48,310 nt of DNA. Origin: Vitreoscilla sp. (GTDB lineage: Bacteria > Pseudomonadota > Gammaproteobacteria > Burkholderiales > Burkholderiaceae_C). The notes under the pieces are model-generated. The model was not told where the DNA came from and did no database searches. It was given only the letters and a program-made list of their open reading frames with translations. Both the position numbers and the translations under genes were made by a program. The stretch lies in NCBI GenBank assembly GCA_018780145.1, contig JADMKA010000237.1, positions 1 to 48,310 of the forward strand. Reading direction: 5' to 3'. Of this stretch, positions 1 to 11,703 are shown piece by piece (positions within the stretch are counted from its first letter, which is position 1; every line of letters starts with the position of its first letter).

Positions 1-618
1 CGCTACAACCCCGAGGGCCTGTCGCGCTACAACATCGTGCCCGGGCTGATCGGCACCATCCTGACGATGACCATGGTCATGCTCACCGGCCTGGCGATGA
101 CCCGTGAGCGCGAACGCGGCACGATGGAGAACCTGCTGGCCACGCCGGTGCGGCCGTTCGAGGTGATGGTGGGCAAGATCCTGCCCTATGTGCTGATCGG
201 CTACCTCCAGCTCGGCGTGATCCTCGGCGCGGCCTGGCTGCTGTTCGAGGTGCCGATGGTCGGCAGCTTCACGCTGCTGATGGCGATGATCGGCGTCTTC
301 ATGCTGGCCAACCTGGCCGTGGGATTCACCTTCTCCACGCTGGCCCGCAACCAGCTGCAGGCGCTGCAGGCGACCTTCTTCTTCTTCCTGCCTTCGATGC
401 TGCTGTCCGGCTTCATGTTCCCGTTCCGCGGCATGCCGGGCTGGGCCCAGGCGATCGGCGAGGTGCTGCCGCTGACGCACTTCCTGCGCATCGTGCGCGG
501 CATCCTGCTGAAGGGCAACGGCCTGGACCAGATGTGGCCGGAGCTCTGGCCGATGCTGGCCTTTCTCACTGTCGCCGGCGCGGTGGCCATGAAGCGCTAC
601 CGGCAGACACTCGATTGA
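1..618 (+). CDS. ABC-2 type transporter permease, 3' part only
   Basis: Reading frame is open from the first base, so the gene starts outside the window; about 205 C-terminal residues are visible. The stretch RERERGTMENLLATPV followed by several hydrophobic helices is typical of ABC-2 permeases of the YhhJ/YbhR class, which form the membrane part of an ATP-driven exporter with a partner ATPase. I see helices at roughly residues 13-33, 63-82, 90-110, 120-140 and 185-200 of the visible part. The partner ATPase and membrane-fusion genes would be expected upstream, outside the window. The substrate cannot be told. The next gene starts 17 bases after the stop, but its function is unrelated, so cotranscription is only possible. 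Confidence 0.88.
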   Translation, partial: RYNPEGLSRYNIVPGLIGTILTMTMVMLTGLAMTRERERGTMENLLATPVRPFEVMVGKILPYVLIGYLQLGVILGAAWLLFEVPMVGSFTLLMAMIGVFMLANLAVGFTFSTLARNQLQALQATFFFFLPSMLLSGFMFPFRGMPGWAQAIGEVLPLTHFLRIVRGILLKGNGLDQMWPELWPMLAFLTVAGAVAMKRYRQTLD

Positions 619-635
619 CGGCATACTCGTCCGCC

Positions 636-1163
636 ATGGACCCCAACGCCCCGGCGCCGGACACCGCGGACGAACTGTTCCGGCTGATGTACCAGGACCT
701 GCGCCGCCTCGCGAGCTCCCGCCTGCGCCGCAGCGAGGACATCACCATGCTGGACACCACGGCGCTGGTCCACGAGTCCTACCTGCGCTTCCAGCACCAG
801 AGCGATCTGGGCGGCATGACCCAGGGCCAGTTCCTGGCCTATGCCGCACGGGTGATGCGATTCGTGGTCATCGACTTCGTGCGCCAGCGACACGCTGATC
901 GGCGCGGCGGTGACCACCTGCATGTCACGCTGAACACCGCAGTGGCCGAATCGGTGGCCGTCAAAGACGACGACGTGATCCGCATCCACGAAGCGCTGGA
1001 GGAGCTGTCCAAGGTGGACGACCGGCTGGCACGCATCGTCGAGATGCGCTGCTTCGCCGGGCTGGACGAGCTGGCCATCGCGCAGGCCCTGGGCATCACC
1101 GACCGCACCGTGCGGCGCGACTGGCAAAAGGCCCGGCTGCTGCTCAAGGCCGTGCTGGCGTAG
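636..1163 (+). CDS. ECF-like RNA polymerase sigma factor with altered DAED motif
   Basis: A 175-residue sigma-70 family protein. Region 2 contains TTALVHESYLRF (residues 41-52) and AYAARVMRFVVIDFVRQRHADRR; region 4 carries a helix-turn-helix in LDELAIAQALGITDRTVRRD. I chose the ATG at 636 because the upstream in-frame extension overlaps the permease gene and has no family resemblance. Standard ECF factors carry acidic DAED just before LVQE to contact the beta-prime clamp of RNA polymerase; here the positions read D40-T41-T42-A43, so two acids are replaced by Thr and Ala. The adjacent Ser/Thr kinase starts 14 bases downstream. By analogy with the Vibrio EcfP/PpkA2 pair, Thr phosphorylation may restore the charge. 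No anti-sigma gene is adjacent. Confidence 0.9.
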   Translation: MDPNAPAPDTADELFRLMYQDLRRLASSRLRRSEDITMLDTTALVHESYLRFQHQSDLGGMTQGQFLAYAARVMRFVVIDFVRQRHADRRGGDHLHVTLNTAVAESVAVKDDDVIRIHEALEELSKVDDRLARIVEMRCFAGLDELAIAQALGITDRTVRRDWQKARLLLKAVLA

Positions 1164-1177
1164 GGGCTGTCAGCGCC

Positions 1178-4060
1178 ATGGCACTCGACCCGGCCGAACT
1201 GGCACGCCTGTCGGAGCTGCTGGACGAGTTGCTGGACCTGCCGGCCGGGCAGCGCGCGGCCTGGCTCGCCGCCCTCGGCCCGGTCGACGAGGGCCTGAGG
1301 CCCCAGCTGACCCGGATGCTGGCCGAGCTGGAGACCGGCGACGCGGCCCCGGGGCTCGTCGGCCTGCTCGACCAGATGCCGCAGATCGCTGAAGCCGCCG
1401 CCGAAGAGCGCCTGGCCAGCGCCGCCCCCGCCGCAGGCACCGCGATGAAGAAGGTGGGCCCGTACTGCCTGCTGCGCCCCTTGGGCCGCGGCGGCATGGG
1501 CACGGTCTGGCTGGCCGAGCGGGTGGACGGCGCCTTCAGCCGCACGGTGGCGCTGAAGCTGCCGCACGTGAACCTGCTGGAGCCGGCGCTGGCCCACCGC
1601 TTCGAGCGCGAGCGCGACATCCTCGCGGCGCTGGAGCACCCGCACATCGCACGCCTCTATGACGCCGGTGTCACCGAGGACGGCCAGCCCTACCTGGCGC
1701 TGGAGCATGTCGAGGGCGTGCCCATCACCACCCACTGCGACCGTGCCGGCCTGGGCCTGCGCCAGCGCATCGGCCTGTTCATCCAGGTGCTGCAGGCGGT
1801 GCAGTACGCGCACGCGCGGCTGGTGGTGCACCGCGACCTGAAGCCCTCCAACATCTTCGTCACGCCCGAGGGCCAGGTGCGGCTGCTCGACTTCGGCATC
1901 GCCACCCTGCTGGACGACGGCGAGCAGCCGCGCGACCAGGCTCCCACCGAGTGGTCCCATGCGCCGATGACGCCGGACTACGCCTCGCCCGAGCAGATCG
2001 CCCGCCAACCGATCGGCACCGCGTCGGATGTCTACTCGCTGGGGGTGGTGTTCTACGAGCTGATCACCGGCCAGCGGCCCTACCGCCTGGCGCGCGACAG
2101 CCGTGGCGCCCTGGAGGACGCCATCCTCGGCACCGACCCGACCAAGCCCAGCCGCATGCCGACCACCGAAGGCGCGGCGGCCGTGCGCGGTGCGCACCTG
2201 TCCGGCCTGCGCCGGCAGCTGCGCGGCGACCTGGACAACATCAGCCTGAAGGCGCTGCGCAAGGAGTCGGTGGACCGCTATGCCTCGGCCGAGGCCTTCG
2301 AGCAGGATCTCATCCGCTGGTTGCGCAACGAGCCGGTGCTGGCCCACCCGGGCCACGCCGCCTACCGGGCGGCCAAGTTCATCCGCCGCAACCGCTGGCA
2401 GGTGGGTGCGGTGGCGGGTGTCGGCCTGGCCCTGATCGGAGGCACCGGCATCGCGCTGCACCAGGCCACGCTGGCCCAGCGCGAGGCGGCCCGCGCGCAG
2501 GCTGTGCAGCAGTTCCTGGTGGGCCTGTTCAACGAGGCCGACCCGGCCCGCGCGCAAGGCCGCGAGCTGACCGTGCGTGACCTGATGGCCCGCGGCGAGC
2601 GCGATCTGGAGGCCAAACTCAGCGGCACACCGGAGTTGAACGCCACCCTCACCGGCGTGCTGGTGCGCCTCTACCTGAAGCTCGGCGAAGGCAAGCGGGC
2701 GCTGCCGCTGGCGCAACGCTGGGTGGATCTGGCCCTCGGAAACCACGGCCCGGACAGCCTGGAGTTGGCCGAAGCGCGGCTGTCGCTGGGTTTCGTGCAG
2801 ACCACCATCGGCCAGCACCAGGCCTCGCTGGCCACGATGGAGCTGGCCCGGCCGACCATCGAGAGGCAGGCCGGCAGGCAACCCGAGATGTGGCTTCGGT
2901 TGCGCAGCGGCATCGCCGACAACCTGTTGGACATGACCCGGTACGCCGAGGGACGCGAGCTGCTCGAATCCATGCTGCCGGACGTGGTCGCGTTCTACGG
3001 TGCCGGCAGCTACGAGGTGGTCAGCGTCCGGACGCGCATTGCCGTCAGCCTGGCCACCGAAGGCCGGCACCAGGAGGCGGTGGCCGCGCTTCGCACCCTG
3101 GAGCCCCTGCTGGAGAACACCTGGCCCGAAGAAGGGCTGGGCGCCGCGATCATCCTCGGCGACGTGGGCTACACCGAATGGCAACTGCGGCGCTGGCCCG
3201 AGGCCGCCCACTCGCTGCGCCGCGCGGCCGCCGAACTCGACCGCCTGGCCGGGCCGAACAACACCCAGTCCATCCAGGTCTCGCGCACGCTGGGCATGGT
3301 GCACATCGATGCCGGGCAGTTCGCGCAGGCCAGCGAGGTCTTCAGCAAGAACCTGGAACGGGCGATCGGCTTCTATGGTCCGCAGGACAGCGAGACCGCG
3401 CTGAACATGTCCTTCCTGGTGATGGCCCTGGCGCGTACTGGCGATCTGGTGAATGCCGAGGCCAAGGCGCGCGAATCCGTGCGGCTGGCCAAGGCCCATA
3501 CCAAGGCCGCACTGTCTGCCTCCGAGATACGCGGCCTGGTGCGCCGCCTGGGCGCGGTGCTGGTGCTGGCCGGCAAGGGTGCCGACGCGCTCGCCGTGCT
3601 GGACCCGCTGCTGGCCGAGGAAGCTGCCGCTGGGCAGCGCGACACACGCCATGCCGCCACGCTGATGTACCGGGCCGGCGCACTGAGCCTGCAGGGCCGC
3701 CACCGTGACGCGGTGGCGGCCGCCGCCGAATCGGCCGAGGTCTGGCGCAAGGCCGGTGCGGCGATGGGCCCGAGTGGCCAGATCGGCCTGGCCAAGGCAC
3801 GGCTCACCGAGGCGCTGGCCTGGTTGGCGTCGAACGAGCCGGCACCAGCCGAGGCCCTGCTGGCCGAAGCCGCCAGCCTGCTGAAGGCAGCTCACGCCAG
3901 CCCGCACCCCGACCACGCCGTGGCCGACCTGGTGAAGGCCCAGTGGCTGCACGCGAGCGGCCAACCCGGCACGGCCGAGACGCTGGCCCGCGAGGCGCGG
4001 GAGCGCTTCCAGAAGCTCAGCGGCAGCCCGGCTCCGGGCCGCCTGGTCGTGCCCTTCTGA
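1178..4060 (+). CDS. Membrane Ser/Thr protein kinase with C-terminal TPR-like region
   Basis: A 960-residue Hanks-type kinase. Order: N-terminal region of about 90 residues; kinase domain about 95-380 with glycine loop GRGGMGTV (103-110), ATP lysine K127, HRDLKPSN with catalytic D220, and DFG D238; one transmembrane helix at about 408-428; then a long alpha-helical repeat region to the C-terminus resembling TPR repeats. All key catalytic residues are present, so it should be active. The topology puts the kinase in the cytoplasm and the repeats in the periplasm, a common sensor layout. It directly follows the sigma-factor gene, and the two probably form an operon in which the kinase phosphorylates the sigma factor. 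The signal sensed by the repeat region is unknown. Confidence 0.92.
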   Translation: MALDPAELARLSELLDELLDLPAGQRAAWLAALGPVDEGLRPQLTRMLAELETGDAAPGLVGLLDQMPQIAEAAAEERLASAAPAAGTAMKKVGPYCLLRPLGRGGMGTVWLAERVDGAFSRTVALKLPHVNLLEPALAHRFERERDILAALEHPHIARLYDAGVTEDGQPYLALEHVEGVPITTHCDRAGLGLRQRIGLFIQVLQAVQYAHARLVVHRDLKPSNIFVTPEGQVRLLDFGIATLLDDGEQPRDQAPTEWSHAPMTPDYASPEQIARQPIGTASDVYSLGVVFYELITGQRPYRLARDSRGALEDAILGTDPTKPSRMPTTEGAAAVRGAHLSGLRRQLRGDLDNISLKALRKESVDRYASAEAFEQDLIRWLRNEPVLAHPGHAAYRAAKFIRRNRWQVGAVAGVGLALIGGTGIALHQATLAQREAARAQAVQQFLVGLFNEADPARAQGRELTVRDLMARGERDLEAKLSGTPELNATLTGVLVRLYLKLGEGKRALPLAQRWVDLALGNHGPDSLELAEARLSLGFVQTTIGQHQASLATMELARPTIERQAGRQPEMWLRLRSGIADNLLDMTRYAEGRELLESMLPDVVAFYGAGSYEVVSVRTRIAVSLATEGRHQEAVAALRTLEPLLENTWPEEGLGAAIILGDVGYTEWQLRRWPEAAHSLRRAAAELDRLAGPNNTQSIQVSRTLGMVHIDAGQFAQASEVFSKNLERAIGFYGPQDSETALNMSFLVMALARTGDLVNAEAKARESVRLAKAHTKAALSASEIRGLVRRLGAVLVLAGKGADALAVLDPLLAEEAAAGQRDTRHAATLMYRAGALSLQGRHRDAVAAAAESAEVWRKAGAAMGPSGQIGLAKARLTEALAWLASNEPAPAEALLAEAASLLKAAHASPHPDHAVADLVKAQWLHASGQPGTAETLAREARERFQKLSGSPAPGRLVVPF

Positions 4061-4061
4061 T

Positions 4062-4078
4062 GCCCCCCGAATGGGGGC
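4062..4078 (+). terminator. Possible terminator hairpin after the kinase gene
   Basis: GCCCCC and GGGGGC form a perfect 6-bp stem around a 5-base loop, starting one base after the kinase stop codon. There is no T-run behind it, so intrinsic termination is uncertain. The remaining sequence to the next gene (4079-4212) is GC-rich and holds no gene that I can support. Confidence 0.4.
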
Positions 4079-4212
4079 CCTAACTTGAGGCGCCGGGCGG
4101 TGTCCGGTTCGGGCCCGCCGGTGCGAATTGATAGGTAGGAGCGTGACAACACGGCGCCCGCCGGGTTGGACAACGGTCCCCCACCTGTCCATTCCAAACA
4201 GCGAGAGAAACC

Positions 4213-6165
4213 ATGAAGACGATTCAGACCACCCGAGCCCTGCGCCTGACCGCCCTGATGGCGGCCGCGCTGGCCCTGTGCGGCATGACCCAGACGGCCC
4301 AGGCCGCGATGAACCAGCCCGAGGCGCTGGACACCACCGCGCTGACCGACGACCACTCGATCAACGTGCCCACTGGCTGGTGGACCTACACCAATGTCAC
4401 CGCGGCGCAGGTCAGCAGCTACCTCAGCGCCAACAGCGCGCGGCTGACCGACCTGGAGGTCTACTCGGTCACCAGCGGCACCCCGCGCTTCACCGTGCGC
4501 ATGGTGCCCAACAGCGGCGCCTACGCGGTGCCTGGATGGTGGTGGTACTACGGCCTCACGGCCGCCGACGTGACCACCCGGCTCAATGCCAACAACGGCC
4601 GCCTGATCGAGGTGGAGCCCTACGACATCGGCGGTGGCGTGATCCGCTACGCCGTGGTGATGGTCTCCAACACCGGCGGTGCGGCGCGCGCCTGGAGCTA
4701 CCTGATGGGCGTCAGCTCGGCGCAGATCAGCAGCCACATCACGTCGTCGGGCCACCGCCTGATCGACCTGGACACCTACACCGAAGGCGGCGTCAAGAAG
4801 TACACCGCCGCGCTGGTGGCCAACACCGGCGCCGACGCCAAGAGCTGGCAGTGGTGGATCAACATGTCGCCCTCGGGCATCGCCAGCAAGGTCAGCTCGT
4901 TCAACGGCCGCATCGTCAAGCTGGAGCGCCAGGCCGACGGCAAGTACAACTTCGTGCAGGTCAAGAACACCGGGTCCGACTCGTCGGCCTGGTGGTACCA
5001 GTACGGCTTCTCCAGCATGGCCGACCTGAACAACTACGGCCTGCAGGTGGCCTCGCGCCCGATCGACATCACCACCTACGTCGACAGCGGTGGCAAGCGC
5101 CGCTACGACGCCAGCTTCATCGACAACGCCAACGACAGCACCCGCCGCATGCGCAGCCTGCTGGGCGCCACCTTCCTGGATGCCAATGGCAACCCGACCA
5201 AGGGCATCTTCGAGTCCTACCTGAAGCAGGTGAGCAGCTCGGTGAAGGTGGATCTGAACGGCGGCCGCCGCGCCGAGACCGCCAGTGCGCTGAAGTCGCT
5301 GCACCTGCTGCACTCGATGCAGCAGGTCGAAGCTGGCGACGACGTCCTGAACTCGTCTTTCACGTACTACGAGTACGACCTCGTGGCCGGCAAGGACGCC
5401 TGCCCGGATCCGTCCAAGGAAACCGCGGCCAACAAGCGCACCAACTACAACTTCGAGAAGGGCCTGGACGAGATGATGCGCATCTCGGACAACCGCACCA
5501 CCCGCGGCACCGTGTTGCGCTACGGCGGCTTCACCCCCTTCAACGCCACGGCCACCGCGTCCGGCATGGGCAGCACCACGATGCGGCACAACATCGGTTG
5601 CGGCTACTGGAACTTCACCACCGGCAAGTACGACCCGGCCGCTCGCCGCAACGACACCAGCGCCGCTGACCTGGCCCGCATCTACGAAGGGGTCTACAAC
5701 CAGTCGCTGCTGACCAACGCCAACTCGGCGCGTGACGAGTTCTTCGAGTCGGCCAACCCGGCCACCGGTGCCAGCGACGCGCTGCAGGCGATCATCAACG
5801 CCGAGGCGGCCGCGGTGGGCAAGAGCGCCATCGCCACGCAGTTCGGCGACCTGGTGAAGACCTGGGGCAAGGGCGGCAGCTACGGCACCTGCCTGGGTGA
5901 CGGCGGCACCGGCTGCGGGCAGAAGGTGATCGTGCGCTCCGGCGCCGGCCTGATCCAGATCCCGATCAAGGGCCGTGGCGGCCTGATCACCTACCGCACC
6001 TACTCGTTCGGCAGGCTGATCTCCGACACCCCGGTGTCCTGCTGGGAGGACTACGACGCCCCGGGCACCAACTGCCAGGAAGACGTGAACTACACCAACG
6101 CCTACAGCGCCGCAGCCAACGAGCTGTACCGCGACGAGATCCGCTCGGCCCTGAAGACCTGGTGA
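4213..6165 (+). CDS. Secreted tandem-repeat protein with beta-lactamase-like serine hydrolase domain
   Basis: A 650-residue exported protein. Residues 1-31 are a signal peptide ending in AQA. Residues about 45-330 hold about five repeats of roughly 50 residues, each with Trp/Tyr-rich openings (GWWTY, GWWWYYG, AWSYLMG, WQWWIN, AWWYQYG) followed by a helix, a GR-L-DLE-type strand and a final strand. This resembles the bacterial tandem repeat domain found beside serine hydrolases and the repeat part of polyglycine hydrolases. The C-terminal half looks like a class A beta-lactamase fold: S358-A-L-K361 fits SxxK and S425-D-N427 fits the SDN loop, 67 residues apart. R575-S-G577 may stand for KTG. 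It is probably an extracytoplasmic peptidase or amidohydrolase rather than a drug-resistance enzyme. Substrate is unknown. Confidence 0.8.
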   Translation: MKTIQTTRALRLTALMAAALALCGMTQTAQAAMNQPEALDTTALTDDHSINVPTGWWTYTNVTAAQVSSYLSANSARLTDLEVYSVTSGTPRFTVRMVPNSGAYAVPGWWWYYGLTAADVTTRLNANNGRLIEVEPYDIGGGVIRYAVVMVSNTGGAARAWSYLMGVSSAQISSHITSSGHRLIDLDTYTEGGVKKYTAALVANTGADAKSWQWWINMSPSGIASKVSSFNGRIVKLERQADGKYNFVQVKNTGSDSSAWWYQYGFSSMADLNNYGLQVASRPIDITTYVDSGGKRRYDASFIDNANDSTRRMRSLLGATFLDANGNPTKGIFESYLKQVSSSVKVDLNGGRRAETASALKSLHLLHSMQQVEAGDDVLNSSFTYYEYDLVAGKDACPDPSKETAANKRTNYNFEKGLDEMMRISDNRTTRGTVLRYGGFTPFNATATASGMGSTTMRHNIGCGYWNFTTGKYDPAARRNDTSAADLARIYEGVYNQSLLTNANSARDEFFESANPATGASDALQAIINAEAAAVGKSAIATQFGDLVKTWGKGGSYGTCLGDGGTGCGQKVIVRSGAGLIQIPIKGRGGLITYRTYSFGRLISDTPVSCWEDYDAPGTNCQEDVNYTNAYSAAANELYRDEIRSALKTW

Positions 6166-6186
6166 TCTCCTGCTGAGAAGCGCCCC

Positions 6187-6224
6187 GGCGCCCGGCTCCG
6201 AGAACTCCCTCGGTGCCGGGCGCC
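6187..6224 (+). terminator. Long stem-loop after the repeat-hydrolase gene
   Basis: GGCGCCCGGC (6187-6196) pairs perfectly with GCCGGGCGCC (6215-6224). Inside a T-T mismatch, CCGAG (6198-6202) pairs with CTCGG (6209-6213) around the loop AACTCC. A 15-bp stem directly behind a stop codon and before an unrelated gene is most simply a transcription terminator or mRNA 3' stabiliser. It lacks a clear T-run. Confidence 0.65.
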
Positions 6225-6282
6225 TCCCCGTTCGGGCTGTGGTATCACCACACCTTCACCACCAACCGGACGGGGAAGCGCC

Positions 6283-7182
6283 ATGGGCTGGTTCGACGGT
6301 TTCAGCTGGGCCGTGCACGAGGTGCAGGGCATTCCCCTTGCCGCCCGCACCGGCGGGAACGCCGCCGGCCCGCCGCTGCTGCTGCTGCACGGCTTTCCGC
6401 AGACGCATGTGCTGTGGCACCGCGTGGCCCGCCTGCTGGCGGACCGATTCTTCCTGGTGCTGCCCGACCTGCGGGGCTACGGCGACTCGCACCTGCCCTC
6501 AGACAGCGCGGACCACGCCGGTTCCAGCAAACGCGCGATGGCTGCGGACATGGTGGCCCTGATGCGCCAGCTGGGGCACCCGCGCTTCGGCCTGGCCGGC
6601 CACGACCGCGGCGCCCGCGTGGCCCACCGCCTGGCCGTGGACCACCCCGGCACGGTGAGCCGGCTGGCCCTGATCGACATCGCCCCCACGCTGGACATGT
6701 ACGCCGCCACCGACATGGCCTTCGCGAGCGCCTACTACCACTGGTTCCACCTGATCCAGCCGGCGCCGCTGCCCGAGCGGATGATCTTGGGCGACGCGAA
6801 AGCCTACCTGCATGCCAAGCTCGGCGGCTGGGGCTCGCGCGGCCTCTCTTACATCGAACCCGAGGCCCTGGCCGAGTACGAGCGCTGCTTCTGCCGCCCG
6901 GAGGCCATCCACGCCGCCTGCGAGGACTACCGCGCCTCCGCTGGCATCGACCTGGACCACGACCGCGCCAGCCGCGCCGCCGGCCAGCAGATCGCCTGCG
7001 ACACCCTGGTGCTCTGGGGCGAGCGCGGCGTGGTGCACAAGCTGTTCAAGCCGCTGGACCTCTGGCAGGCCCAGTGCGCCGGCCAGGTGACCGGCCGCCT
7101 GATGCCGGCGGGGCACTTCATCCCGGAGGAGTGCCCGCAGGAGACGGCGCAGGCGCTGGGCGATTGGTTTTCGACCACCTGA
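6283..7182 (+). CDS. Haloacetate (fluoroacetate) dehalogenase-like alpha/beta hydrolase
   Basis: A 299-residue alpha/beta hydrolase that aligns by eye along its length with fluoroacetate dehalogenases such as Rhodopseudomonas RPA1163. These enzymes hydrolyse the carbon-halogen bond of haloacetates to glycolate through an aspartyl ester. The nucleophile motif is GHDRGAR with D108, R109 and R112; the acid is D132 and the general base H278 in GHFIPEE. The halide pocket residues H153, W154 and Y216 are also present, each two or three positions from their RPA1163 counterparts. Epoxide hydrolases share the fold but use different pocket residues. The ATG at 6283 gives the expected length. Neighbours do not suggest a degradation operon, so the natural substrate may be another halo-acid. 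Confidence 0.85.
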   Translation: MGWFDGFSWAVHEVQGIPLAARTGGNAAGPPLLLLHGFPQTHVLWHRVARLLADRFFLVLPDLRGYGDSHLPSDSADHAGSSKRAMAADMVALMRQLGHPRFGLAGHDRGARVAHRLAVDHPGTVSRLALIDIAPTLDMYAATDMAFASAYYHWFHLIQPAPLPERMILGDAKAYLHAKLGGWGSRGLSYIEPEALAEYERCFCRPEAIHAACEDYRASAGIDLDHDRASRAAGQQIACDTLVLWGERGVVHKLFKPLDLWQAQCAGQVTGRLMPAGHFIPEECPQETAQALGDWFSTT

Positions 7183-7269
7183 GTGCAGCGTCACGTTTGC
7201 TGCAGTGCACAATCGAGCCCAGGGCGCCCTTTGGCGCCACCTCTTCCCTGGCCTCGGAGCGTGCCCACC

Positions 7270-8076
7270 ATGCGTCATGTCGTGTTCAACCAGAAAGGCG
7301 GCGTCGGCAAATCGACGATCACCTGCAACCTCGCCGCCATCGGCGCCAGCCTGGGCCAGCGCACGCTGGTGGTCGATCTGGATCCGCAGGGCAACTCCAC
7401 CCGCTACCTGCTGGGCGCCGGGGCGGACGATGCCGGCGCCGGCGTGGCCGAGTTCTTCGACCAGACGCTGAAGTTCAGCGTGCGCTCACATGCCACCAGC
7501 GAGTACATCGTCGAGAGCCCGTTCGACCACCTGCACGTGATGCCCTCCAGCCCGGCGCTGGAGGAGATGCACAGCAAGCTCGAGTCGCGCTACAAGATCT
7601 ACAAGCTGCGCGACGCGCTGGCCGCGCTGGAAGCCGACTACGACGCGATCTGGATCGACACGCCACCGGCGCTGAACTTCTACACCCGCTCGGCACTGAT
7701 CGCCGCCGAGGGCTGCCTGATCCCCTTCGACTGTGACGATTTCTCCCGCCGCGCGCTCTATGCGCTGCTGGAGAACGTGCAGGAGATCCAGGCCGACCAC
7801 AACCCGGGCCTGAAGGTCGAGGGCATCGTGGTGAACCAGTTCCAGCCGCGCGCCAACCTGCCGCAGCGCACCGTGCAGGAGTTGGTGGACGAGGGCCTGC
7901 CGGTGCTGCAGCCCTACCTGGGCGCCAGCGTCAAGATCAAGGAGTCGCACGAGCGAGCGCTGCCGATGATCCACCTCGATGCACGCCACAAGCTCACGCA
8001 GGAGTTCGTGGCGCTGCACGCGGCGCTGCAGCAGGCATCGGCACCCGCGAAGAAGCGCAGCGCCAAGGCGGCCTGA
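7270..8076 (+). CDS. Orphan ParA-family ATPase
   Basis: A 268-residue P-loop ATPase of the ParA/MinD group. KGGVGKST at residues 8-15 is the deviant Walker A motif with its signature lysine, VVDLDPQGNST is the switch I/Walker A-prime region, and IWIDTPPALNF is Walker B. Such proteins position plasmids, chromosome origins or protein clusters on the nucleoid or membrane. No parB-like gene or parS-like repeat lies nearby, and both neighbours are metabolic hydrolases, so this is more likely an orphan ParA that positions a cellular cargo than a partition locus. The ATG at 7270 is preferred because homologs begin only a few residues before the P-loop. The C-terminus ends in a basic KKRSAKAA tail. 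Confidence 0.9.
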   Translation: MRHVVFNQKGGVGKSTITCNLAAIGASLGQRTLVVDLDPQGNSTRYLLGAGADDAGAGVAEFFDQTLKFSVRSHATSEYIVESPFDHLHVMPSSPALEEMHSKLESRYKIYKLRDALAALEADYDAIWIDTPPALNFYTRSALIAAEGCLIPFDCDDFSRRALYALLENVQEIQADHNPGLKVEGIVVNQFQPRANLPQRTVQELVDEGLPVLQPYLGASVKIKESHERALPMIHLDARHKLTQEFVALHAALQQASAPAKKRSAKAA

Positions 8077-9429: not shown

Positions 9430-11703
9430 TCAGGTCGGCGCGCCGACCAGGGCGGGCTGGCGCGCCAGCCAGTGGCTCGCGTCGGCCACCGCCAGCGGGC
9501 GGCTGAAGAAGTAGCCTTGCAGCTCGTCGCAGCCGGCGTCGCGAGCGGCCTCGGCCTGCGCCTCGGTCTCCACGCCTTCGGCCACCACGCGCAGGTTCAA
9601 GGCCTGCGCCAGCTTGCAGATGGCCCGCACCACGGCCACCGCGTCGGCGGCCGGCATCGGGTCGATCAGCAGGCGGTCGATCTTCACCGTCTGCAGCGGC
9701 AGGCTGCGCAGGATGTTCAGCGACGAGACCCCGGCGCCGAAGTCGTCCAGCGCCACCTGCAGGCCCAGCGCACACATTTCACCCAGGCGCTGGCGGGCCT
9801 GGTCCAGGTGCATGGCCGCCGCGGTCTCGGTGATCTCGATGGTCAGCCAGCGCGCCTCGACGCCATGGCGGGCCATGGTGCGCGCCACCAGCCCGGGGAA
9901 ACCGGGGTCCAGCAGTTGCAGCGGTGACACGTTCACCGCCACCGGCACCAAGCCGGCACCCGCCACCTGCCAGGCGGCGATCTGCGCGCAGGCCTGGTCC
10001 ATGATCAGCGCACCCAGGCTGCCGATCAGGCCGGTGCGCTCCGCCGCGGGGATGAACTCGGCCGGGCTGACCAGGCCGGCGCCCGGGCGCTGCCAACGCA
10101 CCAGTGCCTCGAAACCGACCAGGCTGCCATCCCGGGCATCCACCTTGGGCTGGTAGACCAACAGGAATTCCTCGTTGAGCAGGCCGGTACGCAGGGCCTG
10201 CTCGGCCTCCAGCGAGGCGCCGGAGCCGCGCTCGAAGCGCTCCTCGGCCCGCTGAAGCGACCAGCCCGGCGTGCGCTTGGCCTCGGTCATGGCGGCATGG
10301 GCCGAGCGCAGCAAGGCCTCGGGCTCGCGGCCGCTGTGCGGGTGCAGGGCCAGGCCGATGGAAACGTCGATGTAGAACTCGTGCGAGGGCAGTTGCAGCG
10401 GCTGCTGAAGGCGATCGCGCAGGTGCCCGGCCAGGGCCAGGGAAGCGGCCTCGGCATCGCCCTGCGGCACCGGGAGCAGCAGCGCGAACTCGTCGGCGCC
10501 CAGGCGCATGGCCTCGGCCGGCGCCTCGATGCTCTGCTTGAGCACCTGGGCCAGGGCGCACAGCACCTCGTCACCCATCGACGGCCCGTGCGCTTGGTTG
10601 AAGAGCTTGAAGCGGTCGACGTCCAGCAGCAGCAGGCCAAAGGGGCTGCCGTGGCTGCACAGGTCGCCCAGGCGCTGCAGCAGCGCGCTCCGGTTGGGCA
10701 GGCCGGTCAGGCCGTCGTGCGTGGCCTGATAGAGCAGCGCCGCGGTGGCGTCGTGGTGTTCGGTGTCGTCCATCACCACCACCTGCTCGGCGGGCTGGCC
10801 ATCCCACTCGATGCGCCAGGCGGCAAAGCGCAGGTACATCGGCCGGCCGTCGTGGCGGCTGCGCGGGCCCTCCCATTGCGCCTGCTCCATCTCGCCGCTG
10901 ACGATGGCCCGGTGGCGAGCCAGCGCACGCTCGCGGTCCGCGGGGCCGACATTTCGGCTGAGCCAGGGCAAGGGGAAGTGGCGGCCTGCAGGCAGGTTGT
11001 AGATGCGGTGCGCGGCCCGGTTGGCATAGGGGACCCGGTCGTCCTGGATCACGATGACCCCGAAGTGCAGGTTTTCGGTCATGCGCAGGTACTGGTCGTG
11101 CAGGCGCAGGCTGGTGTCGCCGCTGCGACGCAGGGCCGCATAGAGCAGCGCCAGGCCGAGGGCCGCGCGCAGCACGGTGCCCACACTGGCCTGGAGCGCA
11201 ACGCCCGACTCGCCCAGGAAGACGAACCACAGCCGGTTCAAGGCGATGGCCACCAGCAACACGCCGCTCAGGCGCTCGGCACCACGCTGCGGCCAGAGCC
11301 ACCGGGCTGCCGCCCCGCCGACAGCCAGGTTCAGCACGGTGGTCACGCCGTGGGCCACCTGGATGTTGGTCGGGAGCAGCGCCAGGTAGATCGCCAGCAG
11401 CAACGCCGCCAGCCATTGCAGTTGCCGGCGTGTCAGCGGGCGCCCGGCGAGCCCTGCGGCCCCCATCGCCAACAGCAGCAGGTGGCCCACTGCGGCGGCC
11501 ACCAGCAATGCGCCGGCTGGCACGGCCGCGAGGCCCTGCGTCGCCTGCCACCACAGGTAGCCCGGCGGCGTGGCGACCAGGGCCAGGCAGGAGCCACCCA
11601 GGGCCTTCAGAAAGGCCTGGTCGCGGTGCCGTCGCCACGCCGCCAGCAGTGCCAGCCCGACGATGAGATTGACCAGCGAGTTGGTGAGTAGCGGGTATTC
11701 CAT
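9430..11703 (-). CDS. Membrane GGDEF-EAL protein, probable c-di-GMP phosphodiesterase
   Basis: About 757 residues. The N-terminal 210 residues are hydrophobic with seven or so helices, a membrane sensor region. A PAS-like segment follows, then a GGDEF domain starting at ATHDGLTGLPNR, then an EAL domain. The GGDEF signature reads RLGADEF instead of RxGGDEF, a change expected to weaken or abolish cyclase activity. The EAL domain keeps FEALVRW, ITET, DDFGAG and VAEGVE, so it should hydrolyse c-di-GMP. The protein therefore probably lowers c-di-GMP, perhaps with GTP-binding control by the degenerate domain. ATG at 11703 is preferred; a GTG at 11709 is possible, and an inverted repeat (11713-11730) sits just upstream. 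Confidence 0.88.
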   Translation of the reverse strand: MEYPLLTNSLVNLIVGLALLAAWRRHRDQAFLKALGGSCLALVATPPGYLWWQATQGLAAVPAGALLVAAAVGHLLLLAMGAAGLAGRPLTRRQLQWLAALLLAIYLALLPTNIQVAHGVTTVLNLAVGGAAARWLWPQRGAERLSGVLLVAIALNRLWFVFLGESGVALQASVGTVLRAALGLALLYAALRRSGDTSLRLHDQYLRMTENLHFGVIVIQDDRVPYANRAAHRIYNLPAGRHFPLPWLSRNVGPADRERALARHRAIVSGEMEQAQWEGPRSRHDGRPMYLRFAAWRIEWDGQPAEQVVVMDDTEHHDATAALLYQATHDGLTGLPNRSALLQRLGDLCSHGSPFGLLLLDVDRFKLFNQAHGPSMGDEVLCALAQVLKQSIEAPAEAMRLGADEFALLLPVPQGDAEAASLALAGHLRDRLQQPLQLPSHEFYIDVSIGLALHPHSGREPEALLRSAHAAMTEAKRTPGWSLQRAEERFERGSGASLEAEQALRTGLLNEEFLLVYQPKVDARDGSLVGFEALVRWQRPGAGLVSPAEFIPAAERTGLIGSLGALIMDQACAQIAAWQVAGAGLVPVAVNVSPLQLLDPGFPGLVARTMARHGVEARWLTIEITETAAAMHLDQARQRLGEMCALGLQVALDDFGAGVSSLNILRSLPLQTVKIDRLLIDPMPAADAVAVVRAICKLAQALNLRVVAEGVETEAQAEAARDAGCDELQGYFFSRPLAVADASHWLARQPALVGAPT

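Follow-up and report, generated by a model that had tools for sequence, protein, structure and literature searches.

How is a sigma factor that lacks part of the usual acidic motif switched on, and which gene would it serve? The question is raised by two adjacent genes in a 48,310-nucleotide stretch of DNA from Vitreoscilla sp. (contig JADMKA010000237.1 of assembly GCA_018780145.1; the whole stretch is called the window below), which lies in our contig C257 of a 5.57-Mb assembly. The genes encode an extracytoplasmic function (ECF)-type sigma factor and a transmembrane Ser/Thr kinase, and a gene for a secreted hydrolase follows. With a probability of roughly two in three, we regard the pair as a sigma factor gated by phosphorylation and the kinase that acts on it, together driving the downstream hydrolase gene from a conserved bipartite footprint. 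The features on which this reading turns are the following:

636..1163, + strand: ECF-type sigma factor of 175 amino acids (P0001); TIGR02999, 147.2 bits (cut-off 126.15); PF07638 Sigma70_ECF, 124.1 bits (cut-off 21.1).
753..764, + strand: codons D40-T41-T42-A43 of the sigma factor, placed by alignment, with T42 (759-761) as predicted main phosphosite.
927..929, + strand: codon T98 in the sigma2-sigma4 linker of the sigma factor; predicted second phosphosite (EcfK T106 position), by spacing.
1178..4060, + strand: transmembrane Ser/Thr kinase of 960 amino acids (P0002); Pkinase, 138 bits (residues 98-307); TPR_12, 82.2 bits.
4101..4131, + strand: bipartite footprint TGTCCGGT-N15-CGAATTGA, found by comparison of relatives; candidate hydrolase promoter for the sigma factor.
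4136-4139, + strand: TAGG after the footprint, invariant in five genomes in the same comparison.
4213..6165, + strand: secreted serine hydrolase of 650 amino acids (P0003) with BTRD1 repeats and a class A beta-lactamase-like domain; candidate sole target.

The sigma factor reads D40-T41-T42-A43 followed by LVHE, and in an alignment with 12 ordinary ECFs, which the searches for the relatives had also brought up, these four columns coincide with the DxxD/DAED positions. This agrees with the original prediction, made from the letters of the window, of an ECF-like sigma factor with DTTA in place of DAED and then LVxE; the comparison was made with ordinary ECFs, not with EcfP, and the DAED-equivalent residues were not found elsewhere. 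The same prediction held the acidic motif to be lost, which is right for position 43, where the acid is gone, but too strong for D40, the first acidic position, which is kept. Position 43 carries an acid in 11 of the 12 ordinary ECFs versus 10 of 132 relatives (Fisher p 4e-10, a value that overstates the difference because the rows are related), and position 40 does so in four of the 12. The relatives stem from a family sample of 134 sigma rows, from which a misaligned (L147_4133) and a truncated one (L123_7556) were dropped. Among the remaining 132, Thr occupies position 42 in 111 and Ser does so in five (T or S in 116), position 41 is Thr in 84, and position 40 is D or E in 62, the latter being scattered over the tree with 19 changes by parsimony. 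DTTA is the commonest single motif (22/134 rows). Of the 134 rows, 126 have a kinase gene in their stretch, 108 have one no more than 400 nt away, and in 79 it follows downstream on the sigma strand within that distance; none is present in the fetched stretches of the 12 ordinary ECFs, which have flanks of about 1.5 kb.

Since one of the six retrieval peptides (EDITMLDT) overlaps the motif, the 37 rows from those loci are biased towards D-T. The 94 family rows fetched otherwise have T42 in 73 cases, S42 in five, T41 in 48, D or E at position 40 in 40, and a kinase within 400 nt in 76. Other families of the class contributed a further 19 rows, kept apart from the 132, which show T42 in 16, an acid at position 43 in four, and D or E at position 40 in none. 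On the sequences compared, the DTTA pattern exceeds chance but is a trait of the whole family, not special to the window gene, and the sigma-kinase pair looks like a member of the known switch class of kinase-activated sigma factors. In two relatives, L090 and L093, position 42 is Glu (DTEA); these are natural phosphomimetics, yet a kinase adjoins. A second, divergent sigma-kinase pair with the motif NTTA lies within a few kb of the first in L010 (1166-2969) and L210 (10018-13480). The window's own genome holds six TIGR02999 sigma genes over the cut-off (contigs C148, C185, C191, C84 and C257), five of which adjoin a kinase; the sixth, on C191, has no kinase in its 6-kb stretch, which stops at the contig end upstream.

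The sigma and kinase reading frames are both intact and separated by 14 nt. Together with the domain matches and the catalytic motifs of the kinase (GRGGMG, VALK, HRDLKPSN, DFG and SPEQ), this confirms the predicted intact transmembrane Ser/Thr kinase 14 bases downstream. Two further features of the kinase are:

2402..2458, + strand: predicted transmembrane segment, residues 409-427; highest Kyte-Doolittle 19-residue window, 1.95.
2459..4057, + strand: C-terminal tetratricopeptide repeat (TPR) region with four TPR_12 stretches; presumed periplasmic sensor, its sidedness taken from the published PknS layout.

The next hydrophobic window, at residue 794, scores 1.54; the protein has one clear hydrophobic segment. 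The large periplasmic repeat domain of the original prediction is thus borne out as TPR_12 repeats behind a single hydrophobic stretch, the periplasmic side being presumed from PknS. By sequence, the best Protein Data Bank (PDB) match of the kinase is PknS(1-364) (9EED, E 3.3e-49 over residues 7-382). This alignment begins at residue 7, so that the N-terminal extension is also common to the window kinase and PknS. In the accessible portions of PMC13147305 and PMC8999054, to which all statements on the published sigma-kinase systems below refer, PknS is laid out as an N-terminal extension of 83 residues, a Hanks kinase domain, one transmembrane segment and C-terminal TPRs (PMC13147305). All features of a Hanks-type receptor kinase of this kind (catalytic motifs, one transmembrane segment, C-terminal TPRs and the N-terminal extension) are found in the window kinase. 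The motif, the adjoining kinase and PknS as its best relative uphold the kinase-linked logic that had been proposed.

Where would the phosphate be placed? Three published motifs bear on this question. For ECF43 the consensus reads QTTA, 88% of members having the Thr; EcfP of Vibrio parahaemolyticus has STTA, the second Thr of which is phosphorylated by PknT and is the sole reported site (PMC13147305, PMC8999054), so that PpkA2, given as the EcfP kinase in the original prediction, does not hold; and EcfK of Xanthomonas citri has QATE, PknS phosphorylating T51 and T106 in vitro (PMC13147305). EcfP and EcfK were matched to the window sigma factor by these motifs, not by sequence alignment. A class search of 369 genomes gave 29 new loci (L177-L205); no QATE occurs among them, so the EcfP/EcfK correspondence rests on the published motifs. 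T42 and A43 fit the ECF43 pattern, while D40 keeps one acid, as does EcfK with its QATE. Since the TIGR02999 profile is not the ECF43 group profile, the likeness to ECF43 is one of motif and neighbouring kinase. As the modified residues are the second Thr in the STTA of EcfP and T51 in the QATE of EcfK, T42 is the expected phosphosite by analogy. Thereby the earlier choice of T41 or T42 is narrowed to T42, and a site in the linker, T98, had been missed. T98 lies 56 residues past T42, the commonest spacing in the family (96/134), compared with 55 from T51 to T106 in EcfK. In 112 of the 132 relatives the T98 column has one of S, T, D and E; the published figure for EcfK T106 is 76.9% (PMC13147305). 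T98, matched to EcfK T106 by spacing, is a probable second phosphosite. The AlphaFold model has helix 41-53 beginning with T41-T42, and its linker, where T98 lies, is of low confidence.

Another assignment would, for the D-T-T group, put the phosphate on T41 rather than T42. Position 42 is neither T nor S in 16 relatives; eight of them keep T41, and all eight have D or E at position 40. However, T41 is less conserved than T42 (84 vs 111 of 132), EcfK has Ala at this place, and in EcfP it is the second Thr that is modified (PMC13147305, PMC8999054), which makes T41 a very improbable choice.

The candidate target lies directly behind the pair. P0003 has a signal-like N-terminus (by eye) and matches Pfam Beta-lactamase2 (46.1 bits, cut-off 22) as well as BTRD1, which Pfam names polyglycine hydrolase-like (29.3 vs 23 for the whole protein, with no single BTRD1 stretch passing 0.01 alone). 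Its residues S358-A-L-K, SDN 425-427 and KGG 553-555 represent an SxxK/SDN/KGG set kept in 8/8 aligned rows. The protein thus shows the layout of a polyglycine hydrolase, a repeat N-domain plus a serine beta-lactamase-like domain. It stays well under the NCBIfam class A beta-lactamase cut-off (22.7 vs 200), and in a phmmer search of the PDB no chain was reached at E 0.01, so no solved polyglycine hydrolase was matched. According to the accessible portion of PMC9912923, fungal polyglycine hydrolases such as Fvan-cmp (7TPU) likewise combine a repeat N-domain with a beta-lactamase-like C-domain; P0003, in contrast, is bacterial and belongs to Pfam Beta-lactamase2, whereas Fvan-cmp is aligned with class C enzymes in that paper.

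In the closest relatives with full stretches (L009, L010 and L011) the hydrolase gene also stands directly behind the sigma-kinase pair, and it occurs in none of the other stretches among the 131 compared, the window included. Hydrolase identity to these three is 73-79% versus 47-61% for the kinase. Outside the genus, orthologues were found in three further genomes (L211, L212 and L213) among 299 of the family; among 398 genomes of the phylum the only one is the window's own, and none was found on plasmids. In L211 (7348-11607) the genes immediately before the orthologue are those of another, shorter Ser/Thr kinase and of a membrane-protein-like product, a neighbourhood suggesting that kinases may have gained control of the hydrolase on more than one occasion.

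Which sequence could the sigma factor recognise in front of the hydrolase gene? The spacer between kinase and hydrolase is poorly conserved except for TGTCCGGT-N15-CGAATTGA and the following TAGG, which are invariant in five genomes. In the window, 4101-4131 is the sole match at up to three mismatches, and it is exact; by chance, 0.22 matches are expected at this level, with at least one match in 19 of 100 shuffles. It follows that the footprint does not stand before the sigma gene, as checked with regard to autoregulation. Upstream of the sigma gene a CATACT hexamer is common to four relatives (by eye).

Among 16 genomes of the genus, a sigma orthologue (at least 71% identity), the hydrolase and the footprint are found in the same five; the best sigma factor in a genome without the orthologue reaches 57%. 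The exact footprint occurs once per genome in these five and not at all in the other 11. When two mismatches are allowed, the five genomes still have one site each and the other 11 have ten imperfect sites in all; a backward control pattern gave four sites in the 16 genomes. G675, one of these five, has the block on two contigs, one with the sigma gene and the kinase start and the other with the kinase tail and the hydrolase. Since these five genomes inherited the block in one piece, they do not count as independent cases, and a Fisher value of 2e-4 for the co-occurrence overstates the evidence. A footprint that tracks the sigma factor is the pattern expected of a dedicated promoter, and the element is a likely candidate on this comparative basis. 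The hydrolase as candidate target gained support from the conserved block and the footprint upstream of 4213. By eye, the regions upstream of the hydrolase in L211 (~9550-9600) and L212 (~9850-9905) share a pattern, GGGCTAGGG ... CTAGAGTG, perhaps a different promoter.

The proposed circuit, from its signal to the substrate of the enzyme, would run as follows. The kinase would sense something beyond the inner membrane via its TPR region and phosphorylate the sigma factor, inactive until then, on T42 and probably also on T98. The phosphate would restore the negative charge that ordinary ECFs have at the DAED position, allowing the sigma factor to bind RNA polymerase, and the active holoenzyme would start the secreted polyglycine-hydrolase-like gene from the bipartite footprint. 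Tentatively, and at somewhat less than even odds, we go further and propose a private circuit, in which a whole two-site-gated sigma factor serves a single gene and members with D or E at position 40 form a group with a partly charged switch that is set mostly by the linker site.

Several observations weigh against this reading. As regards the switch, EcfK with T51A alone is functional and fails only when T106A is added (PMC13147305). This speaks for switching mainly via the linker (T98, perhaps T101), with T42 in a minor role: T42 would add little because D40, kept in the window sigma factor, already charges the clamp contact, and the high share of S, T, D or E in the T98 column would suit such a role. 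Since position 42 itself is T or S in 116 of 132 relatives, and the matching Thr of EcfP is the sole reported site (PMC13147305), we consider a mainly linker-based switch unlikely. As the D40 acid is kept, the sigma factor may also not be fully silent without phosphate. Taken to its end, this point would leave a sigma factor that is active without phosphate next to a kinase acting on other proteins, neighbourhood and motif being history. Against this, most relatives no longer have the second DxxD acid, a kinase usually adjoins, and two members of this kind have been tested in print (PMC13147305, PMC8999054), which renders a phosphate-independent sigma factor improbable. Also against the main reading, a kinase still lies within 400 nt in 14 of the 16 relatives that lack both T and S at position 42. 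The structure search with Foldseek gave nothing at E 0.001, with Bartonella RpoE best at 0.048 among weak ECF matches.

As regards the promoter, all four elements (sigma factor, kinase, hydrolase and footprint) are inherited together as a block in a single genus. Relaxing the pattern to TGTCCGG, 14-18 bases and CGAAT brings up a second site in the window's own genome, C15:9837, inside long open frames. The search for a shared promoter motif, as suggested with the original prediction, gave the footprint upstream of 4213 in five genomes but none family-wide: the best dyad behind 74 dereplicated kinases occurs seven times, compared with 5 to 8 times in ten shuffles. Block inheritance and the lack of a motif in the wider family would both suit a footprint that is the promoter or operator of another factor, the true sigma regulon lying elsewhere. 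The hydrolase genes of L211, L212 and L213, however, have no footprint in front of them, and the fetched stretches of these three hold no such sigma gene; that this absence was seen in fetched stretches (4,997 bases for L213) rather than in whole genomes tempers the argument. Its exact form is also absent from the 11 genus genomes without a sigma orthologue, and two short boxes 15 nt apart suit an ECF promoter. We thus regard an element of another factor as somewhat unlikely and retain the phosphorylation-gated sigma factor acting at 4101-4131.

Two systems with such a switch are already known; what is new is the likely single-target promoter. EcfK-PknS of X. citri shares the pairing of a sigma factor with a kinase of the same domain order, the Thr at the third DAED position and a Ser/Thr in the linker, but has QATE instead of DTTA and is linked to a type VI secretion system instead of, as is likely here, one secreted hydrolase (PMC13147305). 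EcfP-PknT shares the TTA of its STTA, the second Thr being the phosphosite in EcfP; unlike the window sigma factor with its D40, EcfP has no acid in the motif, and its regulon concerns the polymyxin response (PMC8999054, PMC13147305). In the open-access literature, which is weak evidence of absence, we found no report of the pair in Ideonella or of such a sigma factor driving such a hydrolase. The locus supplies exact coordinates for a likely target promoter, and the regulon looks as small as a regulon can be; it is suited to weighing the contributions of each phosphosite and of the leftover acid D40 to sigma activation, and it would tie a family of secreted enzymes to this class of signalling.

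Searches of the sigma factor against the PDB gave a best phmmer E of 0.23 and no match at 1e-4 with a profile. A scan of 500-4300 for sigma-70 promoters and terminators found none, including none at 4062-4078, and an Rfam scan of 1-8000 gave nothing reaching the gathering score. Behind the kinase gene lies one further feature, noted by eye:

4062..4078, + strand: G+C-rich inverted repeat after the kinase, with no T run; possible transcription end.

C-run/G-run pairs stand at the same place in the relatives whose spacers were compared.

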